Positions 1,800 to 59,773 of a stretch of 64,000 bases of DNA are shown here, one piece after another. Origin of the DNA: Bacillota bacterium (GTDB lineage Bacteria; Bacillota; Sulfobacillia; RBS10-35; JAJYVN01); the NCBI GenBank assembly GCA_021797775.1, contig JAJZZC010000001.1:1-64000 (forward strand). Reading direction: 5' to 3'. The notes under the pieces were generated by a model. It was not told the origin of the DNA. It saw only the letters and a list, made by a program, of their open reading frames with translations, and ran no database searches. The number at the start of each line of letters is the position of its first letter. Position 1 is the first letter of the stretch. A program made the translations under genes and the position numbers.

Positions 1800-3896
1800 C
1801 TAACCCAGATGCGGGTGCGCGAAACGGAGGGCGGCCTGCAGCACCATGCCGACGATCCACGAGGGGTTCCAGGGGTTGAAGCCGCCCCGCCCGGAGCCCG
1901 TCGTCGACCAGTTTGTTTGGAAGAGCGCCTCAGGTTGTTCTCCGGGCGTCGGGTAGCCCCAGTCACCCGGTTGGCGCGCCACCCCCTGCGTGCACGCCTG
2001 CAGCACCCCGTGCCCCAGGTCCTGCAACCAGGGAACGCGCAGGCGGACGCCCAGGTCGTGGACCTCCCACGGGAAGAAGAAGACGTCGAGGTGGTGGTTC
2101 TGCACGCTGACGCTGGGCCAATAGGCGGTACGCAAACCCTGGCGGGCGCAGGCGCTGTCCGCTGGCAGGTCCACGTTCCAGCAGTAGACGAACGTCGCCG
2201 CCCACTCCGCCGCCAAACGGGCGGCCTCGGCCAAGCGCGGCGCAGCGGTCAGGCGGAAGGCGTGGTAGGCCGCAAGGAAAAAGTACAGCCCGGCCTCCTT
2301 GTCTTCACAGGCCGCGTCCAAGGTCGAGCGGCTGAATGGCTGGTCAAAGGTGCGGGCGAAGAGGTCCTCGTAGTGCGCAAGAAGGGTCAACGCCCTCCTC
2401 TGCAGCTCCTCGTCGGCGAGGAACTCGCCGCCGCGCAGCAGCGCGACCACGGCAGGCAGGCCCGCGGCGCTGGTGAAGCCGTCGGCCGGATCCCCCGTGC
2501 GGGCGAAGTAGCAGGGAAAGACCCCGTCGCGGTTGGTGCGCTCAGGCGAGGCCAGGAAGCGGAGGCCTCCGCGCAGCGCCGCGGCCCAGGACGGGTCTAG
2601 AGGCTGCCCGTGCCGCCGCAGCAGCAGCAGGCAATCCGCCAGGTTGGCCAGGGCCTCGCCGGCCATACGGCTGCTGAAGCGCTCGCTCTGGCGCTTGGCG
2701 TCCGCATACCAGCGCCCCTCGTCGAGGGCGTAGTAGAGTGGGCGCAGGCCGGGCGCCTCCTTGCGCTCTGGGGCCGCGGCGAAGTGAGTGAGGACCGCCC
2801 GACCCTTGGCGCTCCACGCCGGATCCCCCCCGGTGAGCCCCAGGGCCAGGGCGCACCAGGCCAGACGCAGGGACTGCCCGGTCCATCCGTACAGGAAGCC
2901 TGGGGCACGGCCGTAGATATTGCCCTCCTCCCGTGTGGGTGTGGCCACGAGGAAACCGCCGGGGCCGGCCGCGCGCCACCGCTGGTGCAGCGCCTGACTC
3001 TTCAGGGCGACGGTCTCTGCCGGCGTGAGCGCCGGATCGGCGCGCGGCCGCAGGACGTCCCAACCGCAGTGCACGAGTTGGCGGAAGCCCTGCCCCTCGG
3101 CCACGCAGGGCCCGAAGTCGAGGACCAGGGTCTTCTCCAAAACGTCCCCCGCTTGGAGTGTCAGATAACCGCGCGCTGGATCGTGCACGGCCTGATTCTG
3201 GGCCGCGTAGATCGAATCGCGCTCGCCGTTCAACGCCATGGCGCCGCTGAGGCTGAGGAGGTCGATGCCGGTGGCACTCCCTGCCCCCCCGAGCGTCCAC
3301 CAGAGGTCCTCCCCTGCCCCGGGCAACCGGATGCGCCCCGGCAGCACCAGCAGGGTGAGCGCCAGCCGGCGGCCGCCGGCCGCCCACTCGACGTTGATGC
3401 CGGGCACGGGCAAGCGGTGCTCCTCGACCACCAAGACGGAGCCCGTTACGGGCGCCAGGCGAGGCACCAGGCGCTCGGGCGCCGCTGACGGGTTGCCGTT
3501 GTAACTGACGCCGGGGAGGGTCACCTTGGCCGCCGAACCGCTGGGGGTGGGCAAGCGGGTGCCGAGCGTCACCCCAACCAGTGGGGAGTCGCCCCGGACC
3601 ATCCAGCGGCGGGTGAGCCAGACCCGCTCCCCCCGCCACCGCCAGCCGTCGGCAATGGCCACCGCCCCGGCCTCGGCGCGGACGTACATCTCCCCCTTGG
3701 CATCTTGCTCCCACGCCAAAGACCGTAGGGGAGCCGGCGCCAGATCCCACGGCCGCGCAAACGATAGCGGCGTAAAGTCTGCGTAGCGGAACGAAAGGAC
3801 GCACGTCGGCTCCACCCCGCGCCAGCGCAGCGCGACCCTCAGGTCGTCGCCGGTACCGCTGAACGCGACGGCGCGTTCCCGGCTGTCATCCCACAT
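1800..3896 (-). CDS. Large hypothetical protein, glycoside-hydrolase-like (N-terminal beta domain plus alpha/alpha-toroid-like C-terminus)
   Basis: 699 aa from an internal ATG; aromatic-rich; helical repeats with WTGQSLRLAWCALALGLT and RMAGEALANLADCLLLL; just downstream of a solute-binding-like gene on the same strand. Confidence 0.6.
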   Translation of the reverse strand: MWDDSRERAVAFSGTGDDLRVALRWRGVEPTCVLSFRYADFTPLSFARPWDLAPAPLRSLAWEQDAKGEMYVRAEAGAVAIADGWRWRGERVWLTRRWMVRGDSPLVGVTLGTRLPTPSGSAAKVTLPGVSYNGNPSAAPERLVPRLAPVTGSVLVVEEHRLPVPGINVEWAAGGRRLALTLLVLPGRIRLPGAGEDLWWTLGGAGSATGIDLLSLSGAMALNGERDSIYAAQNQAVHDPARGYLTLQAGDVLEKTLVLDFGPCVAEGQGFRQLVHCGWDVLRPRADPALTPAETVALKSQALHQRWRAAGPGGFLVATPTREEGNIYGRAPGFLYGWTGQSLRLAWCALALGLTGGDPAWSAKGRAVLTHFAAAPERKEAPGLRPLYYALDEGRWYADAKRQSERFSSRMAGEALANLADCLLLLRRHGQPLDPSWAAALRGGLRFLASPERTNRDGVFPCYFARTGDPADGFTSAAGLPAVVALLRGGEFLADEELQRRALTLLAHYEDLFARTFDQPFSRSTLDAACEDKEAGLYFFLAAYHAFRLTAAPRLAEAARLAAEWAATFVYCWNVDLPADSACARQGLRTAYWPSVSVQNHHLDVFFFPWEVHDLGVRLRVPWLQDLGHGVLQACTQGVARQPGDWGYPTPGEQPEALFQTNWSTTGSGRGGFNPWNPSWIVGMVLQAALRFAHPHLG

Positions 3897-4416
3897 GGTG
3901 CACGGAACGCGCACCGCACGCTCGTCTGGGTGCTGTCCCCCCGGATCCCCCACCGCAGCGCACCCCCTCCCAAACCGATGGCCCAGGACCGCCCGGGACC
4001 GTGCAGGCGGAACCGACCCCACGAAGTAGCGGTTGGCAGGCCACGCGAACCCCGCAGCGGGCCGTGTCCAGCCCTTCCATGCCGGAAGGCGACGTCGGCG
4101 TCAGCCGCCGGTGGGTCCGTCGCTGCCGGGGATCACGCCGCACTCGGGGGGCGTTGGTCTGCACCCCGTTGGTACGCATGACCCCGGTGCCCCCCCCGCC
4201 GCCGAGAGGCTTTGCCGTGCTGGCCAGCCCGGCGGCGGGCGCGGGCCGACCCTGTCGCCGCGGGCGGCATCGCGCCCCACCTAGCGAGCCCCGCAGCCGC
4301 CGTCGCGAGGGCGGTGATCGCAGGATGCCTCCCATCGCCGCCCCCTCTGCCGTACGCCCCGTCCTCTCCGCTGAGGTGAGGCGCCAGAAGCGTCCTGCCG
4401 CCCTGCCGCCAGAACC

Positions 4417-6471
4417 CTACCCGCCCACTTGGTAGAAGGCGGTCGGTGTGAAGCTGAGATGATCGAACACGACGCTGAGGTTGTTGCCACCGTTATTGGA
4501 CCCCCAGATGCCAACCCAGCAGCCGGCCATTTCCAGGGCGGCCGGGGTGCCGGCCAGCGTCCAGGTCGTCCCGTCCAGAGACGTGTACGCGGTCCACCGG
4601 ATGACGTCACGCACGAGTTTGAACCATACCGGATGCAACAGGTAGTTCTTGGGCTGGGGGGAAGTCGTGCGTGGGAGCAGCAGCCCTGCCTCGGGCAGCA
4701 CCGCAGGCCCGCCGAAGCCACTCTCATCCGTCACCTGGACCTCGGGCAGCGGCCGGTTCCAGACGTGGACGCCGCGATTGATGGCGGCGGCCACCGTCAT
4801 CACGGGGCAAGTGCCGCTGAGGTCCCCTCGGGCCATCAACCCGACCTTGGCTCCTGTCGATGGTCCACCGCCCACGCTGCCGATGGCCGTCAGGCGGCAC
4901 GCAAATGTGCCCGTGCTGGACGTCCACGGCATACAGGCGAACGTCATGCCGTCGTTGATGGCCAGCGAGATACCATGACCAGAGCCGATGAGCGTGTACA
5001 CTCCGTTCTTCACACTCACGGATCCCTTCGGCGCCAGCGTCGGTGCCCGCCCAAGGCCGGTCTTTGATGGCACGGGGAATGTCACCGCATGCTTGGCCTT
5101 CACCGCTTGACCCAGGACTCCCGCGAGCTTGGCCTCGGCACCAAGCGCCACGGCGGCGGTGGTCTCCAGGGCGTTGATTTGCTTCGCGGCGGCAGCGAAT
5201 GCGCCGGCCACGGAAATGCTCTTGCTAAGAATCTTTCCGCCCCACGAATTCAGGATATTGGTGGCCTCCGAAGGGAAGTACTCGAAGTCCGAGCGGATGG
5301 CCAGGTGTGAAGCCATCTGAGTCAGAACCCCCAGGTTCTTTCCCCGCAGCGGGGGCGCGTACTGCTCCAACGTAGCCACGTACTCTGGCCACAGCGCGTT
5401 CAATACCGGCCCTTGCAACTGGACCTTCATCATCCAGCGTTGCCATTCGGGCCGCGCGGACATCCAGTAGATGAAGGACCATGCGGCTGACGGCTGTTTG
5501 GTGATGGCGGAAACCGTGAGGGCATCGGGGCCCGAGTCGTTGAAGACCCCCCGCGGAAAGGAGGGCAGTGGCCAGAAGTCCCACTTCTGTCCCTGGAACC
5601 GCGCGGCAATCTGCGGCAGGGCGTTCATCCCAAAGATATCGGACACCGCGAGACCCTTCGCCCACTGCGCCGGAAAGGTGCTGGTGGTCAGCCAGGCCTT
5701 GCCGGACAGTAGCAAGTCGAAGAACCACTCGCCCGCAGCTATAGCCTCTGGACTATCCATGGTGCAATGCCGGGGATTCGTCGGGTCAACGTAGGAGCCG
5801 CCCCACCCATGCAGGTAACACGAGGCGGGGACGTTGCCTGCGGTGGCTTGGCCCAGCAACCCCCCCCCGTACACATGCTTCTTGGATGTGATACTCGTGC
5901 CCGCGGCCCAGAGCTTGGCGGCCTCCGCAACATCCCAGGTAGGAGAGGGATAAGGGAGACCGGCGGCGTCGAGCATGCCTTCGTTGACGATCATCCCGTA
6001 GGCGTTGGTGTTGTATGGGAGTCCCCACAGCGCACCCCCCGTCCGCCAGTGCCCCGCGATACCGTTCCACATCGCAAAGTCGACGTTGGCCTGCGAGGCG
6101 TATGGGGCCAGGTTCAGCAGAGCGCGCGCCTGCATCACCTCACCTGCAAAGCCGGTGCCGAAGACGTCGGGAGCTTGTCCGGAGAGCACGTCGCCCACAA
6201 ACTGTGAATCGCCGATTCCCGGCACCCACCTGATCCTGATACCGCGGTTGGCGGCCAGAAAAGGCGCGATTCCTCGGTTGCCGATCTCGATCCACACCGG
6301 GGTCGTCCCGATAAGACTCACCTGCAGTTCCACCACACCCGACCCGGCGGTCGGTACCGCGGCCACCGCCGCCGGTCCGAGCAGACCGACCGCCAGCACA
6401 GCCCCGACACCCGTGGCTCCGGTTCCGATCAGGCGGCGGCGCGTTGCCGTGATCCCAGAAGTCCGCAACAC
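4417..6471 (-). CDS. Extracellular solute-binding-like protein 1, Tat-type signal, C-terminal DUF1349/ConA-like domain
   Basis: GTG start with gggagg RBS; TATRRRLIGTGATGVGAVLAVGLLGPAAVAA signal; SBP-type body (NEGMLDAAGLPYPSPTWDVAEAAKLW); C-terminus RWTAYTSLDGTTWTLAG...MAGCWVGIWGSNNGGNN. Confidence 0.8.
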   Translation of the reverse strand: MLRTSGITATRRRLIGTGATGVGAVLAVGLLGPAAVAAVPTAGSGVVELQVSLIGTTPVWIEIGNRGIAPFLAANRGIRIRWVPGIGDSQFVGDVLSGQAPDVFGTGFAGEVMQARALLNLAPYASQANVDFAMWNGIAGHWRTGGALWGLPYNTNAYGMIVNEGMLDAAGLPYPSPTWDVAEAAKLWAAGTSITSKKHVYGGGLLGQATAGNVPASCYLHGWGGSYVDPTNPRHCTMDSPEAIAAGEWFFDLLLSGKAWLTTSTFPAQWAKGLAVSDIFGMNALPQIAARFQGQKWDFWPLPSFPRGVFNDSGPDALTVSAITKQPSAAWSFIYWMSARPEWQRWMMKVQLQGPVLNALWPEYVATLEQYAPPLRGKNLGVLTQMASHLAIRSDFEYFPSEATNILNSWGGKILSKSISVAGAFAAAAKQINALETTAAVALGAEAKLAGVLGQAVKAKHAVTFPVPSKTGLGRAPTLAPKGSVSVKNGVYTLIGSGHGISLAINDGMTFACMPWTSSTGTFACRLTAIGSVGGGPSTGAKVGLMARGDLSGTCPVMTVAAAINRGVHVWNRPLPEVQVTDESGFGGPAVLPEAGLLLPRTTSPQPKNYLLHPVWFKLVRDVIRWTAYTSLDGTTWTLAGTPAALEMAGCWVGIWGSNNGGNNLSVVFDHLSFTPTAFYQVGG

Positions 6472-13359: not shown

Positions 13360-14640
13360 TCAGCCCGCGCGGGAAGGGGCCGGGTCCACCGTCCAAATCG
13401 GCGTGTCTAGCGCCACCCGCCCCCCGTGCCCCTGCGCCTCGACCTCCAGGAAGGCGGCGCGGTAGACACCCGGCTGGGCCTCCCACTCCACGGTCCACGG
13501 GGGCCCGCCGGCCAGCGCCGGCCCGGGACTCCAGCGCGCCTCCCGGAAGTCCATGGTCGGCTGCGAGCTCGCCCACAGCCGCGGGGGCGACGCGCTGGCC
13601 GGTCCATCGACGCGCACGCGCACCCGATCCGCCTCTCGGCGCAACTCCCAGCGCAGCGGGGCCAGCCCGCCTGCCCCCTCGTCCCCGCCGAGCGACAGAT
13701 CCCAGAGCGCGGAGAGGGCCCCGGCCATGCGCTCGGGTTGGCCGAGCCCGTGCCCCGCGTTGGGGATGTATGTGACGTAGGTGGGGGCCGGCAGCGCGTC
13801 ATGGTAGAGCCCCAGCGCATCCACCGGCCAGTACGGGTCGTTCGTGCCGAGGATCAGCCACTTGGGCATCGTCAAGCGCGCGCGGTGGGCGAAGGGATCG
13901 ACCATCGCCAGCAGGTGATCGCCCCCCGGCGCCTCTATGCGCTCCAGGAGGCCGCGATCGGTGTAATCCGCGATCTCCGGGCTGTAGCCCCCGTCGAACA
14001 CGTCCCGCTGCCGCCGCAGTTGGGCCCGCATGTCCAGGTTGTCGTAGACCATGGGCGCGATAGCGCGCACGCGGGGATCCGCCGCGCCCGCCAGGTAGGT
14101 GGTCCAGCCGCGCTTGGAGGCCCCCGCCACGACGAAGCCATCAACGCGCACGCGCGCCGCCAGAAAGGTCTGCAGCGCGTCCATGGCGCGGACCGCGGCG
14201 CGCGTCATCGGCAGCAGCAGCGGCCAGGAGGGATCGCCATCCTCCAGGAAGCGATCGAAGGTGTGGGCGATGAGCGCGTCCTCGCGGAGATCGCCGAAGA
14301 GCGGCTGGTTGGGCACGTCGGCAAGCACGGCCACAGGGGCGGCGATGCGTAAGGCCAGCGCCTCCAGCAACGCCAGCTCGCCAGCGTGGTCGCCGCTGCC
14401 GGTGACATAGAGGAAGCAGCGGCTGGAGGCACCGGCGCCCTCCGGCAGGATGCAATACAGGCGGTGGGTCCAGGGCAGCCCGCGCCACCGCTGGGATGTG
14501 AGGCGCAGCGTGTGGAGCACTGCGGACGACGCGCGCGCAGCGGGCAGTTCCTCCTCCCAACTCCAGTCGCCTCCGCCGTCGCGCACCAACGCGTCGAGAT
14601 CGGCCGATCCCCTGTTCACGGCGCCGTCGGCACTGCTCAT
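13360..14640 (-). CDS. PhoPQ-activated pathogenicity-related family protein (PqaA-like alpha/beta hydrolase)
   Basis: VDGFVVAGASKRGWTTYLAGAADPRVRAIAPMVYDNLDM...LTMPKWLILGTNDPYWPVDALGLYHDAL is typical of the PhoPQ_related family. Confidence 0.85.
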   Translation of the reverse strand: MSSADGAVNRGSADLDALVRDGGGDWSWEEELPAARASSAVLHTLRLTSQRWRGLPWTHRLYCILPEGAGASSRCFLYVTGSGDHAGELALLEALALRIAAPVAVLADVPNQPLFGDLREDALIAHTFDRFLEDGDPSWPLLLPMTRAAVRAMDALQTFLAARVRVDGFVVAGASKRGWTTYLAGAADPRVRAIAPMVYDNLDMRAQLRRQRDVFDGGYSPEIADYTDRGLLERIEAPGGDHLLAMVDPFAHRARLTMPKWLILGTNDPYWPVDALGLYHDALPAPTYVTYIPNAGHGLGQPERMAGALSALWDLSLGGDEGAGGLAPLRWELRREADRVRVRVDGPASASPPRLWASSQPTMDFREARWSPGPALAGGPPWTVEWEAQPGVYRAAFLEVEAQGHGGRVALDTPIWTVDPAPSRAG

Positions 14641-17899: not shown

Positions 17900-18568
17900 A
17901 TAATGGCTGCGGAGCGCAACATCTAGGGGCTTGACGCCACCATAGCACTCGCGGGTCGAGGTGTGGGTAACGATGAGACCGGCGGGGCAAGCGGCGGGCC
18001 GCCATGGCCGCACCCCCATGGCCGAAGCGCCGGAGCGCGGGCAGAGGGCGAACCGGCGGCCAGCGTGTGCCGGTCGGCAGGGATTCGCATCCCCGGGTAG
18101 CTGCCACCAGCCAGCGGCGGCGCGCGCGGCCCTGCCAGGGTCAGGGCTCTGGGAGAAGGGTCGGAAAGCCGGCGGACGGCACGGGTTGCCGCGAGGGGTG
18201 GTAGGTCCTCGTCCCGGATGCCCCGGCGGGGGGAGGACGGGGAGGGATCGGGTCCGGCATGTTCGACCACTCTCTTTGGAACGACGCCACCTCGCGGCAC
18301 GGCGCAGGCAACCGGATGGCGGAAGCCGAACCCCCGACAGGCCGCGGATGACTCCAGCGGCGGGGGCACGGCCAAGGCAACGGCAGCTGGCCTTGCCAAG
18401 GTCTTCTGTCCGGGTGGCAGCGTCGGCGACCGCCCTGGTCACTCACCGCGGACACGGCAGTCGCCACCCGCCGCGCCGGGGGCCAATCGCAGGCGGAAAG
18501 GGGCGAAAGCCTGGCCGGGCAGGGTGCACCGCCGCACGGGTGGTTGGTGCCGGTTGCTCCCACCAGGC

Positions 18569-19405
18569 ATGCGCATGGACGCCGCCGACACGCGCGCCGT
18601 CCCGCTCTGGCCCGACGGCGCCGTCCCGCTCGGGGCAGGCTCGGGTCCGGCCGACCGCCCCTCCGTCACGCCATACCTCGTCCGCGAGGGGGACGTGCGC
18701 TCCGCGGTGGTCGTCTGCCCAGGCGGTGGCTACGCCGGGCTGGCGGACCACGAGGGGGAGCCGGTGGCGCGTTGGCTGAACGCGCGCGGCCTGCACGCCT
18801 TCGTGCTGCGCTACCGCGTCGCCCCCTACCGGCACCCGGCCCCGCTCTGGGATGCCCAGCGGGCGATCCGCACGGTCCGCCACCACTGCGGCCCATGGCG
18901 GGTCGACCCAGGCCGCGTGGGCATCCTCGGCTTTTCGGCGGGTGGCCACCTCAGCGCGACCGCCGGGACCCACTTCGACCACGGTGATCCCGCGGCGGCC
19001 GACCCGGTGGACCGCCAGGGGTGCCGCCCGGACTTCCTGATCCTCTGCTACGCCGTGATCAGCTTTGTCGCACACACGCACCAGGGCTCCATGACGAACC
19101 TGCTGGGGGCAGAGCCGCCCGAGGACCTGCGGCGGGCCTTGTCCAATGAAGAGCAGGTGACGGCAGCCACGCCGCGCACCTTCCTCTGGCACACCGCGGA
19201 CGACGCTGGGGTCCCTGTCGAGAATAGCCTGGGCTTCGCGGCGGCCCTGTCCCGCCACCGCGTTCCCTTCGACCTGCATGTGTATGCCCACGGCGCGCAC
19301 GGCCTGGGGCTGGCCGCCAACGATCCCCACGTCGGCAACTGGACGGCGGTCTGCGCGGCGTGGTTGACGGCGCAGGGACTCGACGGGGCGCGAACCGGCC
19401 GCTGA
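18569..19405 (+). CDS. Alpha/beta hydrolase (esterase/acetyl-esterase family)
   Basis: CPGGGYAGLADHEGEPVARWL oxyanion motif; GFSAGGHLSA nucleophile elbow; HTADDAGVPVENSLGFAAAL and YAHGAHGLGL. Confidence 0.85.
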   Translation: MRMDAADTRAVPLWPDGAVPLGAGSGPADRPSVTPYLVREGDVRSAVVVCPGGGYAGLADHEGEPVARWLNARGLHAFVLRYRVAPYRHPAPLWDAQRAIRTVRHHCGPWRVDPGRVGILGFSAGGHLSATAGTHFDHGDPAAADPVDRQGCRPDFLILCYAVISFVAHTHQGSMTNLLGAEPPEDLRRALSNEEQVTAATPRTFLWHTADDAGVPVENSLGFAAALSRHRVPFDLHVYAHGAHGLGLAANDPHVGNWTAVCAAWLTAQGLDGARTGR

Positions 19406-20141: not shown

Positions 20142-22343
20142 ATGGCCTTGACGGGGGACGAATCGCCAGGCTCCGGTCCGCGCCTGACGCGGCGGCGCGC
20201 GTTAGGCTATGGTGCGCTGGTCGCCGGGGCGGTCGCGGCAGGCGGAGGGTCGGTCTCCACGGTCGCCGCGGCCGCGCCCACGGGGACGAACCCGGTCACC
20301 GTGGTGTGGTTCAACATCAACTGGCAGACCAACTGGAATCAAGCCGCGGTGACCCTGGTGCAGGACTTCACCGACGCGAATTTCAACTCCAAGCACAAGG
20401 GAATCCGCGCGCAGCCGACGACGGGGCCCTGGGGCAACGCCTCGGGCGTCTACGCGCAAGTGCTGGCGGGTGACGCGGCCAGCACGCCCGCCGTCCTCAG
20501 CAGTTGTTGCGGGGACTTCGCCATCGCCCTGCCCATGCTGGAGAATCTCAGTCCATGGTTTAGCAAGGACAACATCAACCCGCAGACCATGTACTCGCCC
20601 GGCCAGCTCCTCACCTTCACGGAACCGACGGGTCTGTACGGCGTGCCGGCGTACACCTGCGTGCAGCCGCTCTTCTACAGCCAGACGCTGTTGGATGACC
20701 TGGGGCTGGCTTACCCCGATCCAGCGTGGGACTACACCGAGGCCACCCGTCTCTGGCGTTCCATCGCCGGCAAGGCGAGCAATGGCCAGTGGCGCTACGG
20801 CAGCAGCATGCAGTGGTACCAGACGTATTTCGACGGAGGGCTATGGCTACTCAAGGGCTTTGGTGGGGAACTGATGGATCCGACCCGTACGCGCTGCCTG
20901 CTGGGAATGCCCGAATCCATCGCCGCAGCCAACTGGATTTATCCATTGATCTGGGACAAGGTGCTGATCAACCGCGGCGGCGCGGCGAACTGGACCAGCG
21001 TTGGCGGTCCCCTGCTCGCCGGCACGTGCGGCTTTACGCAGACCGCGGGCTTTGGGTTGAGCCACATGGCGGCCTATGTCGGCAACAAGATCAAGTGGGA
21101 CATCGTGCCCATGCCCTCGTGGCCCGTGCGGCGCGCCAGCAACGTGCAGGTGGACTACTTCGGCATGAACGCCGCATACCCGAACAAGGAGCTGGCGTGG
21201 GAACTGTTCAAGTTCCTCGCCGTCGACCAGGCCACTGAGGCCTTCGTCATCAAGCTGTCACTGACCGAGCCCAAGCTGCTGTCCATGTGGGATCAGTGGG
21301 AGGCGATCGTCACCGCGGCCGCGCCGCCGCTGCGCGGCAAGCAGTTGAAGTGGTACGCCATCGGCGCGCAGCAGGGTTGGGGTTTCGGGCACCAGTTTTG
21401 GAAGTATGACGACTCCACGGTGGAGTCCGCCATGGGCACGATCTTGGGCCAGATCTGGAATCATCAGATGGACCCCGCGGAGGGGTACCCGCTCCTCGCC
21501 AAGCAGATCGACGCGATGCAGGCGGCGGGACAGAAGACGAACGCCGTGTTGGCGACGGAGGAGGCTGCCCAAGCCAAGGCCCTGGCCGCCGTCAAGGTCG
21601 GACCCACCACCCAGTACCCCGCCCCCTCGATGACGGGGGTGGGAGTGCCACCGACCGAGGCCAAGAACCTGGTCGTCGTGGGGCCCGGTGGCAGCTACAC
21701 CCTCTTGGGTGACGGCTGGGACATGTGGTCGTCGTCCGACAACACCGTTTTCGCCTGCGCCCCGATGACCGCGACAGAGGGCGAATGGTCCTGCCGGGTC
21801 ACGATGGTGACCAACCTCACCTGCCCGCACCTGAGCCAGTGGTCCAAGGTCGGCATCGGGGCGTTCGGCGACTTGTCCGACGACAGCCCCGCGGCCTATC
21901 CCCACGTGACGGGCGCTCACCAGATCGAGTGGCAGTACCGTATCGTCCCCGGCCTTACACCCAGCGGCGCATCGGGCCTCTTACCGACCGGGGTGAAGAA
22001 TCTCATGGCTCTCAACACCAAGCCCGCAGCCAACTACCTCTTGGCACCCCTCTGGCTGAAGATCAGCCGCAAGGGACAGGAGTGGACCCCGTGGGCATCC
22101 ATGAATGGCAAGACCTGGACACAGATCAATCCGCCGGCCGTGGTGCGCATGGCGGGCTGCTGGGTCGGGATCTACGCGTGCGCCCACAATGGCAGTTTCG
22201 GGAACAAAGGGTACATCCGGGCCACCATCGACAACCTGAGTTTCACGCCGACACACTTCATGCAAATGGGTAATACCGGTACACCGCCAGCGGCGGGACC
22301 GGTACCCAAGAACTGGGCCACGATGACGCCCGCGGGAATGTGA
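20142..22343 (+). CDS. Extracellular solute-binding-like protein 2, Tat-type signal, C-terminal DUF1349/ConA-like domain
   Basis: RBS aaggagg; LTRRRALGYGALVAGAVAAGG; SBP body; C-terminus WTPWASMNGKTWTQINPP...MAGCWVGIYACAHNGS. Confidence 0.8.
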   Translation: MALTGDESPGSGPRLTRRRALGYGALVAGAVAAGGGSVSTVAAAAPTGTNPVTVVWFNINWQTNWNQAAVTLVQDFTDANFNSKHKGIRAQPTTGPWGNASGVYAQVLAGDAASTPAVLSSCCGDFAIALPMLENLSPWFSKDNINPQTMYSPGQLLTFTEPTGLYGVPAYTCVQPLFYSQTLLDDLGLAYPDPAWDYTEATRLWRSIAGKASNGQWRYGSSMQWYQTYFDGGLWLLKGFGGELMDPTRTRCLLGMPESIAAANWIYPLIWDKVLINRGGAANWTSVGGPLLAGTCGFTQTAGFGLSHMAAYVGNKIKWDIVPMPSWPVRRASNVQVDYFGMNAAYPNKELAWELFKFLAVDQATEAFVIKLSLTEPKLLSMWDQWEAIVTAAAPPLRGKQLKWYAIGAQQGWGFGHQFWKYDDSTVESAMGTILGQIWNHQMDPAEGYPLLAKQIDAMQAAGQKTNAVLATEEAAQAKALAAVKVGPTTQYPAPSMTGVGVPPTEAKNLVVVGPGGSYTLLGDGWDMWSSSDNTVFACAPMTATEGEWSCRVTMVTNLTCPHLSQWSKVGIGAFGDLSDDSPAAYPHVTGAHQIEWQYRIVPGLTPSGASGLLPTGVKNLMALNTKPAANYLLAPLWLKISRKGQEWTPWASMNGKTWTQINPPAVVRMAGCWVGIYACAHNGSFGNKGYIRATIDNLSFTPTHFMQMGNTGTPPAAGPVPKNWATMTPAGM

Positions 22344-57601: not shown

Positions 57602-59773
57602 TCAGGTCACGCCCACGGTGACGAACCGGTCCGGCTGGAAGCCGGCGACATGGTCGAAGATCGCCAGGACGTTGTTGCCGCCGTGGGGGGTCGCGTAGAC
57701 TCCCACCCAGCAGCCCAGGAAGCCCATGCCCACTGGCGCGTAGGCCTGGGTCCAGTCCGTCCCGTCGAGTGACGTATACGCCGTCCAGTGATCAACCTCG
57801 AAGTCGAGCCGCAGCCACACCGGGCGCAGAAGGTAGTTGTGCGCCGGCCGGGTCGCACGGCGCAGGATCACGTCCTTGCCGATCAGGCCCGTCGGGTTGC
57901 TGTTCGAGGGCGGGCGGTGATCCCCGAGCGAGGTGCCCGCGAACGGCCGGGTGTGCATGTGTACGCCTCTGCCCACCGCCACCTCGATGCCGATCTCCCC
58001 CGCCATGCTGGAGAGGTCGCTGCGCGCCATCAGGCCGATCTTGGCGCCGTCCGTCAGGCTGTGGCCCACGTGTGCGGCAATAGAGGCCAGGCGGCAGACG
58101 AACCGGCCGCGGCCCGCCACGTAGGCCTGGGCGGCGAAGGTCATGCTGTCGAGGGCGCCAGCCACCCCCCCGCCCTCGCCGATGACCGTCACCGTGCCGG
58201 ATCTCTTGTTGACCCACGCCAGGGAAGGGGACGGGACCGGAGGCAACCCCAGGCCGCCGACCGGCGGCTCAGGGAAGCGGATGGCGCGCCCGGCACCCTC
58301 CGCGGCCATCCCCGCGGCCACCGCGGCACGGAAGCGGCGCCGCGCCTGCGCCCGTGACGCGGCGGCGCCGCCGGCCGCCTGCTGCGCCGCGTCGATCCGC
58401 TGCGTCATCTCGCGAAAGGCGGCGTCCACGCCGATGGTCTGCGCCTCCAGCATCCGGGCGTAACGCGCGATGATGCCTTTGACCTCCACGGCGGCGTAGC
58501 GGAAGGCGCGGCCGAAATACGGTTCGCCGTTGCGCACCGGCAGGACGAAGGCGTCCAGGTTCTTGTCCCGGAGTGGCGGCGCGAACTGCACCACGATCCG
58601 CTTCCATTCCTCCCACAGCGCCGCCTGGTTGGGTCCGGCCAGAGCGGTACGCATGACCAGGCGCTGCCAGTCGGGACCGAACGCCATCCACTTCAGCAAC
58701 GCCCACGCCTGCTCGGGGTGGCGCGTCCCGGACCACACCCCGTAGAAGTCGCTGGCTGCGTACGCGCTGCGCCGCACCGGCCAGGCAGGATCGGGGAAGA
58801 AGTCCCAGCGGAAACCCTTCCACCGCTCCGCCTCGGCGACCTGGCCCCCGTATGTGCCCGTGTTATGGGTACAGACCACTTTGCCCTTGACGAAGTCGCC
58901 GAAGCCGGCGACGCCGTCCCAGAGGAGTTGGTAGCGGGCGCGCCCACAGGCCAAAGACCCCGGGCTGCTGAGATAACAGCGCGTCGGATCGACGGGGTCC
59001 ACGTATTCTCCCCCGTAACCCCAGAGCCGGTACGGTGTGATCATGTTATAACTGTAGTCATAGCCCGCGTTGTCGAGGTCTGTGCCAAACCGCTGGCGCC
59101 TGCCGCGGCCGGGCCGTACCGTCACCGCCTCCCACAGCCGGGTCCAGTCCTGCACCGTCCAGTCCGGCTGTGGCGATAGGTGGCCGACGCCGTCCACGGC
59201 GCTGAGGTTCACGGCATAAGCCTGGGTATGCACGTACGCGGGTACGGCGAAGAGAGCGTGGGGCTGGCCGGGCGCGAACTGGCCGGCCTCCTGGAAAAAC
59301 GTCATCTCCCCGGGCGGGAAGATGTCCAGCTGCAGGCGATCGCGCTGGATGTAGGGAGCGAGATCCAGCATCAGGTCGTTCTGGACGAACGGGCGGAGGA
59401 TCCAGTCGGAGAAGACATCCGGGCCCGTGCCGGCCAGCATGGCCGCCTGCGTGGCCCCCTGGTATCCCTGGTCGGTGAACAGCCGGACCTCTACGCCCGG
59501 ATGATCCGCGAAGAACGACCCCATCCCCGCGGAAAGCAACTCCCAGAGTGCGGGGCCGACAGCCGTGGGCCAGGCCTGGGAGGGCAGAAGATAGAGCACC
59601 ACGGGCGCCGCCGCCGCAGGCGTGGGGCGGCTCGACACGGGGCGCCGGGCCCCGCCGCAGGCCACCAACAGCGTGCCGGCAGCGGCTGCGCCCGTCCCGG
59701 CCAGCGCCGCCCGCAAGGCACGACGGCGGGTCCACCCTCCCTCGGCGGCCGCCGCGCCCCGCCTGGAGAGCAT
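57602..59773 (-). CDS. Extracellular solute-binding-like lipoprotein 3, Tat-type signal, C-terminal DUF1349/ConA-like domain
   Basis: WTRRRALRAALAGTGAAAAGTLLVACGG; SBP body; C-terminus HWTAYTSLDGTDWTQAYAPVGMGFLGCWVGVYATPHGGNN. Confidence 0.8.
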   Translation of the reverse strand: MLSRRGAAAAEGGWTRRRALRAALAGTGAAAAGTLLVACGGARRPVSSRPTPAAAAPVVLYLLPSQAWPTAVGPALWELLSAGMGSFFADHPGVEVRLFTDQGYQGATQAAMLAGTGPDVFSDWILRPFVQNDLMLDLAPYIQRDRLQLDIFPPGEMTFFQEAGQFAPGQPHALFAVPAYVHTQAYAVNLSAVDGVGHLSPQPDWTVQDWTRLWEAVTVRPGRGRRQRFGTDLDNAGYDYSYNMITPYRLWGYGGEYVDPVDPTRCYLSSPGSLACGRARYQLLWDGVAGFGDFVKGKVVCTHNTGTYGGQVAEAERWKGFRWDFFPDPAWPVRRSAYAASDFYGVWSGTRHPEQAWALLKWMAFGPDWQRLVMRTALAGPNQAALWEEWKRIVVQFAPPLRDKNLDAFVLPVRNGEPYFGRAFRYAAVEVKGIIARYARMLEAQTIGVDAAFREMTQRIDAAQQAAGGAAASRAQARRRFRAAVAAGMAAEGAGRAIRFPEPPVGGLGLPPVPSPSLAWVNKRSGTVTVIGEGGGVAGALDSMTFAAQAYVAGRGRFVCRLASIAAHVGHSLTDGAKIGLMARSDLSSMAGEIGIEVAVGRGVHMHTRPFAGTSLGDHRPPSNSNPTGLIGKDVILRRATRPAHNYLLRPVWLRLDFEVDHWTAYTSLDGTDWTQAYAPVGMGFLGCWVGVYATPHGGNNVLAIFDHVAGFQPDRFVTVGVT

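Follow-up and report, generated by a model that had tools for sequence, protein, structure and literature searches.

Three genes for solute-binding-like proteins in the window

The window, that is, the whole stretch of 64,000 nucleotides analysed here, contains three genes that encode related, predicted exported proteins (Table 1). An earlier note had described them as a family of Tat-type proteins resembling solute-binding proteins (SBPs), with a fused C-terminal ConA/DUF1349-like domain, and the three open reading frames were confirmed at their positions and strands. End-to-end alignment showed that all three share a TRRR signal motif, the sequence APPLRGK or APPLRDK, a linker and the C-terminal module, in which the motifs W-T/P-x-x-S-x-(D/N)-G-x-x-W-T and GCWVG(I/V)(W/Y) occur in every copy. 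Over the full-length alignment, copies 2 and 3 are 30 and 34% identical to copy 1, and copy 3 is the only one of the set with a lipobox, as previously noted. The HMM matches, the tree and the counts rule out three unrelated reading frames brought together by chance or artefact.

Table 1. Positions of the three genes, their domains and two of their neighbours in the window
Feature	Position	Strand	Description and evidence
Copy 1	4417..6471	-	SBP + ConA-like protein, predicted exported, 684 aa, RR signal, no lipobox
SBP_bac_1 match, copy 1	5458..6261	-	Pfam 4.5e-12, residues 71-338
ConA/DUF1349-like domain, copy 1	4432..5082	-	ConA-domain alignment; own HMM 240.7 bits
Copy 2	20142..22343	+	SBP + ConA-like protein, predicted exported, 733 aa, RR signal, no lipobox, C-terminal GTPPAAGPVPKNWAT tail
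SBP_bac_1 match, copy 2	20355..21233	+	Pfam 4.9e-15, residues 72-364; Foldseek to sugar SBPs
Linker helix, copy 2	21474..21590	+	39 residues between the two domains; DSSP H445-483, AlphaFold2 model
ConA/DUF1349-like domain, copy 2	21612..22262	+	Predicted alone, pLDDT 95.5, pTM 0.92; Foldseek to DUF1349 and GH43 C-terminal domains
Copy 3	57602..59773	-	Predicted Tat lipoprotein, SBP + ConA-like, 723 aa, lipobox LLVACGG
SBP_bac_1/SBP_bac_8 match, copy 3	58646..59563	-	Pfam 1.8e-9 / 4.8e-7
ConA/DUF1349-like domain, copy 3	57620..58279	-	GH43_C2 E 0.004; own HMM 247.7 bits
Neighbour of copy 1	1800..4022	-	740 aa, same strand; no Pfam or NCBIfam match
Neighbour of copy 2	18218..19405	+	BD-FAE-type alpha/beta hydrolase, carbohydrate-esterase-like, same strand; Pfam BD-FAE 2e-14

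The bodies of the three proteins belong to SBP_bac_1, with Pfam scores of 47.0, 56.8 and 38.4 bits against a gathering score of 26. In a profile search the best PDB match of the family was the arabino-oligosaccharide receptor AbnE (6rjy, 4.2e-38), and Foldseek matched the copy 2 body to sugar SBPs of Thermotoga, Clostridium, Listeria, Streptomyces and others, including CbpB, MalE and GacH (TMt ~0.65-0.79). The AlphaFold2 model of the whole copy 2 protein (pLDDT 82.9) consists of an SBP body, a helix that corresponds to the expected linker and a jelly roll. The C-terminal region is a separate ConA-like domain, which was predicted with high confidence on its own, with 20 paralogues as input (Table 1). 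Since this tail folds independently and Foldseek aligns the body separately with sugar SBPs, the idea that it is an integral part of a standard SBP fold was rejected.

The DUF1349 label holds for the fold of the tail and not for its sequence. The best solved Foldseek matches of the copy 2 domain were 3o12, 3mep and, in GH43 beta-xylosidases, the ConA domains at the C-terminus (E 1e-7 to 1e-6, probability 1.00); 3o12 and 3mep are solved proteins without known function, which we take to be of the DUF1349 type, as the sub-threshold Pfam match also hints. The PF07081 scores were 15.2, 17.9 and 11.8 bits against a threshold of 32.4, and the GH43_C2 match of copy 3 was also below cut-off. Thus, the tail is DUF1349-like by fold and lies outside Pfam DUF1349. 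Among the papers searched, none treats DUF1349 together with solute-binding proteins.

Pfam searches revealed no permease or ABC ATPase among the window neighbours of the three copies, in agreement with the earlier note, and no LacI gene was found adjacent to them. The neighbours with Pfam matches encode an acetyltransferase, an Nramp protein, a PhoPQ-related protein, a BD-FAE esterase, an HlyD protein, a DAHP synthase and a methyltransferase. The PhoPQ-activated pathogenicity-related protein (13360-14640, minus strand; PF10142, E 4.5e-86) stands in a context from which other virulence-type genes are absent. The 740-aa neighbour of copy 1 gave no match at a useful E value in Pfam, NCBIfam and PDB sequence searches; in a genome of another genus, a 62%-identical homologue (L185:4991-7177) adjoins a family member of the SBP-only type, and we would guess at an unclassified glycan-active enzyme. 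At the C-terminus of copy 2 (~22269-22340), the ConA domain is followed by a conserved tail, G(T/V)PPAAGxVPxxWAT, which recurs in about half of the fused paralogues of the source genome.

Expansion, descent and predicted export of the family

Three is the number of copies in the window; genome-wide, the family is a lineage-specific expansion in which many members have no ConA tail. The genome-wide count, run with a profile of the three copies, matched 67 pieces in the source genome (G000), comprising ~24 full-length fused genes, ~12 genes of the SBP-only type and numerous remnants, either broken or reduced to the ConA part. Frameshifts or stops interrupt the examples on contigs C304 and C196, and on C134 a tail fragment precedes a whole copy; such remnants suggest birth-and-death turnover of family genes. 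Genomes from five sister genera in the bacterial family, among them G003, G004 and G005, contain 9, 21, 31, 64 and 67 members (E <= 1e-10), many of them in tandem, as on contigs C127, C51, C52 and C74 of G005. Beyond this bacterial family, genomes of the same order and class gave only weak matches to ordinary SBPs.

The counts of PF01547 follow the same pattern: at least 42 in G000 and 6, 19, at least 34, at least 39 and at least 42 in the other five genomes of the bacterial family, where the figures for the richest genomes are lower bounds and the genome with 6 is 81% complete. Elsewhere in the class, 35 genomes have 0-16 each. Across the phylum, the ConA domain (E <= 1e-6) was matched in three of 398 other genomes, each time weakly. 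A scan of genome contigs with a single protein gave no match. An alignment-based scan with one degenerate pattern found family members in metagenome-assembled genomes (MAGs) filed under the name 'Bacillota bacterium' (TL1-3.bin6, FK2.bin46, FK2.bin21, YP3.bin25 and TL1-3.bin40), of which TL1-3.bin6 and FK2.bin46 have the same member sequences as G004 and G003; its matches beyond the lineage lie mainly over the tail, and with this one pattern a wider spread is possible.

The genomes are fragmented MAGs, and the estimated contamination of G000 is 6.7%. On at least one G000 contig (C151) a member is identical over the SBP body to a G005 member, and thus some of the members counted in G000 may be mis-binned. 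Identical or near-identical members are seen between G000 (C151, C273) and G005 (C37, C74), and for C273 and C74 the neighbouring Gfo/Idh/MocA genes are equally spaced. These pairs may represent either shared or mis-binned contigs or a recent transfer between two genera.

In a tree of SBP bodies, all 76 family rows fall in one clade (SH-aLRT 95), next to an SBP encoded beside permeases in G000 (L126_5, contig C242); other canonical SBPs and SBPs from other families of the class lie outside the family clade (midpoint root). This position beside a permease-linked SBP indicates that the family descends from importer receptors. The members are strongly divergent, with ~30% identity in the SBP body, and about half of them carry the fused ConA-like domain. 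Well-supported branches of the tree record at least 15 switches between presence and absence of the tail, and distances between SBP bodies are correlated with those between tails (Mantel r 0.32; none of 2000 permutations as high). The simplest reading of these sequence relationships would be an old fusion followed by repeated tail loss, and tail regain or exchange is possible.

Nearly all members show, by script, an RR followed by a hydrophobic stretch, and an RR is also seen in most of the remainder, which the rule misses; the family is thus predicted to be Tat-exported. With gene starts from a home-made caller, a lipobox was present in 29 of the 31 members examined in G003-G005, and in G000 in two of 22 fused and four of 12 SBP-only members. 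No Omp85 was found in the six genomes of the bacterial family, in a search whose control was positive in seven control genomes including diderms, and its absence suggests a single membrane in this lineage. Importer receptors of monoderms are normally lipid-anchored. Unlipidated copies in a monoderm would be expected to be released or bound to the wall, which argues against a classical importer role, and the two window copies without lipobox could simply diffuse away.

Permeases, regulators and candidate partner genes around the members

The absence of permeases extends well beyond the three window copies. Among the 145 members located in G000, G004 and G005, two lie within 3 kb of a PF00528 permease, which is the chance level; seen from the permeases, 0 of 29, 2 of 38 and 1 of 22 are within 3 kb of a member, with 1.7, 3.0 and 2.2 expected if genes are placed uniformly, an assumption that takes no account of contig ends or of glycan genes lying in clusters. 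Contig ends conceal part of the context of some members. Judged by permease linkage, the family body would not be classed as an importer receptor. In G000, six canonical SBPs stand beside permeases (C171, C242, C284, C349, C377 and C276).

Orphan permeases beside members elsewhere were sought and the idea was abandoned: the only cases within 3 kb are on G004:C137 and G005:C109, with G000:C105 at 3.1 kb, and on G005:C109 a canonical SBP directly precedes the permeases. On G004:C137, a member adjoins an open reading frame (L168:5068-6411) that matches parts of an SBP and of a BPD_transp_1 permease, and which may be either a fusion or a decayed importer remnant.

Sugar-type regulators are found close to members far more often than expected. 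In the same three genomes, 16 of the 26 PF13377 (LacI/GntR-LacI) regulators have a member no farther than 2 kb away, with ~1.5 expected on the same assumption of uniform placement (7/13, 6/9 and 3/4; P 6e-7, 4e-6 and 2e-3). The neighbours of members include sulfatases, GH38, GH106-like, alpha-L-fucosidase and apiosidase-like enzymes, MR/MLE enolase, Gfo/Idh/MocA oxidoreductases and an MFS carrier, and these gene contents support glycan catabolism as the probable context of the family.

Among the matches listed, 27 of 75 G005 sulfatases lie within 3 kb of a member (7.4 expected, again for uniform placement), and the enrichment is not significant in G000 and G004; a general sulfatase linkage was therefore dropped, being significant in G005 only. 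At least 80 PF00884 sulfatase matches in 3.7 Mb (G005) and at least 57 in 4.0 Mb (G004) are very high numbers for small genomes, and point to the use of sulfated glycans.

SBP-only members are often accompanied by genes for predicted secreted proteins that could supply a binding module in trans. In G004, a DUF1349-like lipoprotein gene, L180_7, lies 28 bases downstream of the SBP-only gene L180_6, a pair that by its sequence is probably the fused architecture split in two. A CBM9 lipoprotein gene comes after the fused gene L183_5. Beside six SBP-only genes, and on the same strand, stands a member of a family of secreted proteins or lipoproteins (A5), most of whose strong genome matches adjoin members of the SBP family. 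This family of ~300 aa occurs in several genera (L096:6053-7519, L111:4522-5466, L115:2060-3073 and L170:6012-6902) and gave no useful match in Pfam, NCBIfam and PDB sequence searches; our guess is that it is a candidate glycan-binding partner. Two related small proteins of 131-139 aa without Pfam match (L092:3055-3474 and L104:12306-12701) are encoded directly downstream of two fused members.

Proposed function and rival readings

The earlier note had proposed surface glycan-binding proteins rather than transport components. The separate tail, the missing permease linkage and the glycan-catabolism context agree with glycan binding; the surface placement is less certain for the window copies, since most G000 members have no lipobox, unlike their relatives. 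Based on the computed domain structure, expansion, common descent, missing permease linkage, regulator linkage and lipobox pattern, we propose that importer receptors took on a new role as exported glycan receptors regulated by their substrate, whose binding module is either fused to them or supplied in trans, a reading to which we give a probability of just over one half.

According to this proposal, the family would have arisen from a carbohydrate ABC-importer receptor that lost its permease link. The Tat route would export the folded protein, the two-lobed SBP body would bind oligosaccharide in its cleft, and the ConA-like module on its long helix would dock on polysaccharide; in tail-less members a separately exported partner may dock instead. 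LacI or GntR-LacI sensors would switch on single loci in response to their own substrate. Glycans would be concentrated at the cell, or around it in the case of unlipidated members, for sulfatases, glycosidases and oxidoreductases, and the products would enter via other carriers, so that the receptors would be independent of a transporter of their own.

The most serious rival is that orphan SBPs feed a few shared, distant MalFG-type permeases and thereby widen the substrate range. The complete SBP fold, the descent from a permease-linked SBP and the presence in each genome of several canonical SBP-permease sets, including MalF/MalG-type pairs, are all as expected for shared pumps. However, G005 has 67 members but, counting every kind, 22 PF00528 genes, most G000 members have no lipid anchor, the bodies are strongly divergent and a tail of 220 residues is fused to them; we regard this reading as doubtful, although worth keeping in view.

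It has also to be considered that the proteins are ligand-presenting sensors, which bind glycan outside and pass on a signal like the SBP co-receptors of chemotaxis or sensor kinases, with no role in uptake or retention. The strong linkage to sugar-sensing regulators and the PAS/GGDEF/HD genes near a few members fit with this, but the linked LacI/GntR regulators are cytoplasmic and sense imported ligand themselves, and no receptor kinase was consistently found beside members, which makes a purely sensory role unlikely. Least probable by some distance is a secreted enzyme or auxiliary protein with a catalytic tail fed by the SBP body: the tail is similar in fold to the jelly rolls of GH16 and PL7 enzymes (Foldseek E 1e-5 to 1e-4) and of GH43 C-terminal domains, but the best matches are DUF1349 proteins without known function and ancillary GH43 domains, and the 12 invariant columns of the tail alignment (P, G, R, A, L, W and S only) include none of the acidic residues that a glycosidase needs.

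Large sets of orphan SBPs are already known. PMC5994714 gives 79 TTT SBPs for Bordetella pertussis and 434 for Rhodoplanes sp. Z2-YC6860, and ligands of Bug proteins, the TTT-type SBPs of Bordetella, are treated in PMC11452294. As described there, these expansions resemble the present one in having dozens to hundreds of paralogous SBPs per genome, far more than there are membrane components; most of these SBPs are orphan, they are lineage-specific, and some lie near regulators. They differ in being of the tricarboxylate transporter type in a Gram-negative periplasm, whereas the SBPs described here belong to the carbohydrate ABC type, and the parts of these papers that describe them do not mention Tat-lipoproteins or a lectin-like C-terminal fusion. 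No TctC family appeared among the Pfam matches of the three copies at E values up to 1. What would be new is the carbohydrate-type, lectin-fused, Tat-exported and LacI/GntR-tied form in an apparent monoderm.

With carbohydrate ABC-importer receptors such as AbnE, MalE and CbpB the family shares fold, family and common descent with permease-linked SBPs, but it has no linked permease, carries the ConA-like fusion in about half of its members and is often unlipidated in G000. The tail has the jelly roll of DUF1349/GH43_C2 ConA-like domains (3mep, 3o12 and GH43 beta-xylosidases); unlike these, which occur alone or on an enzyme, it is below the Pfam cut-off and fused to an SBP. The likeness to SusD/SGBP proteins of Bacteroidota lies in the proposed role only, as substrate-regulated exported receptors with many paralogues and glycan-degradation neighbours. 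SusD is an alpha-helical TPR-type protein, unrelated in fold to an SBP, and with no Omp85 found there would be no outer membrane of that kind. More tentatively, and with odds somewhat below even, the lineage may possess a transporter-independent system of glycan capture in an apparent single-membrane cell, in which dozens of Tat-exported, LacI-controlled former importer receptors with a lectin-like module in cis or trans would fill the role of SusD/SGBP with a different set of components.

If the proposal is correct, importer receptors can part from their pumps and turn into a stand-alone system of polysaccharide capture, and a poorly known, apparently monoderm lineage spends up to ~2% of its genes on glycan capture. 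The LacI/GntR linkage offers single loci with a testable inducer and ligand, and the swap of the binding module between cis and trans would be a natural experiment on the role of the tail. Moreover, the automatic label 'ABC transporter substrate-binding protein' would overstate the transport capacity of such genomes.
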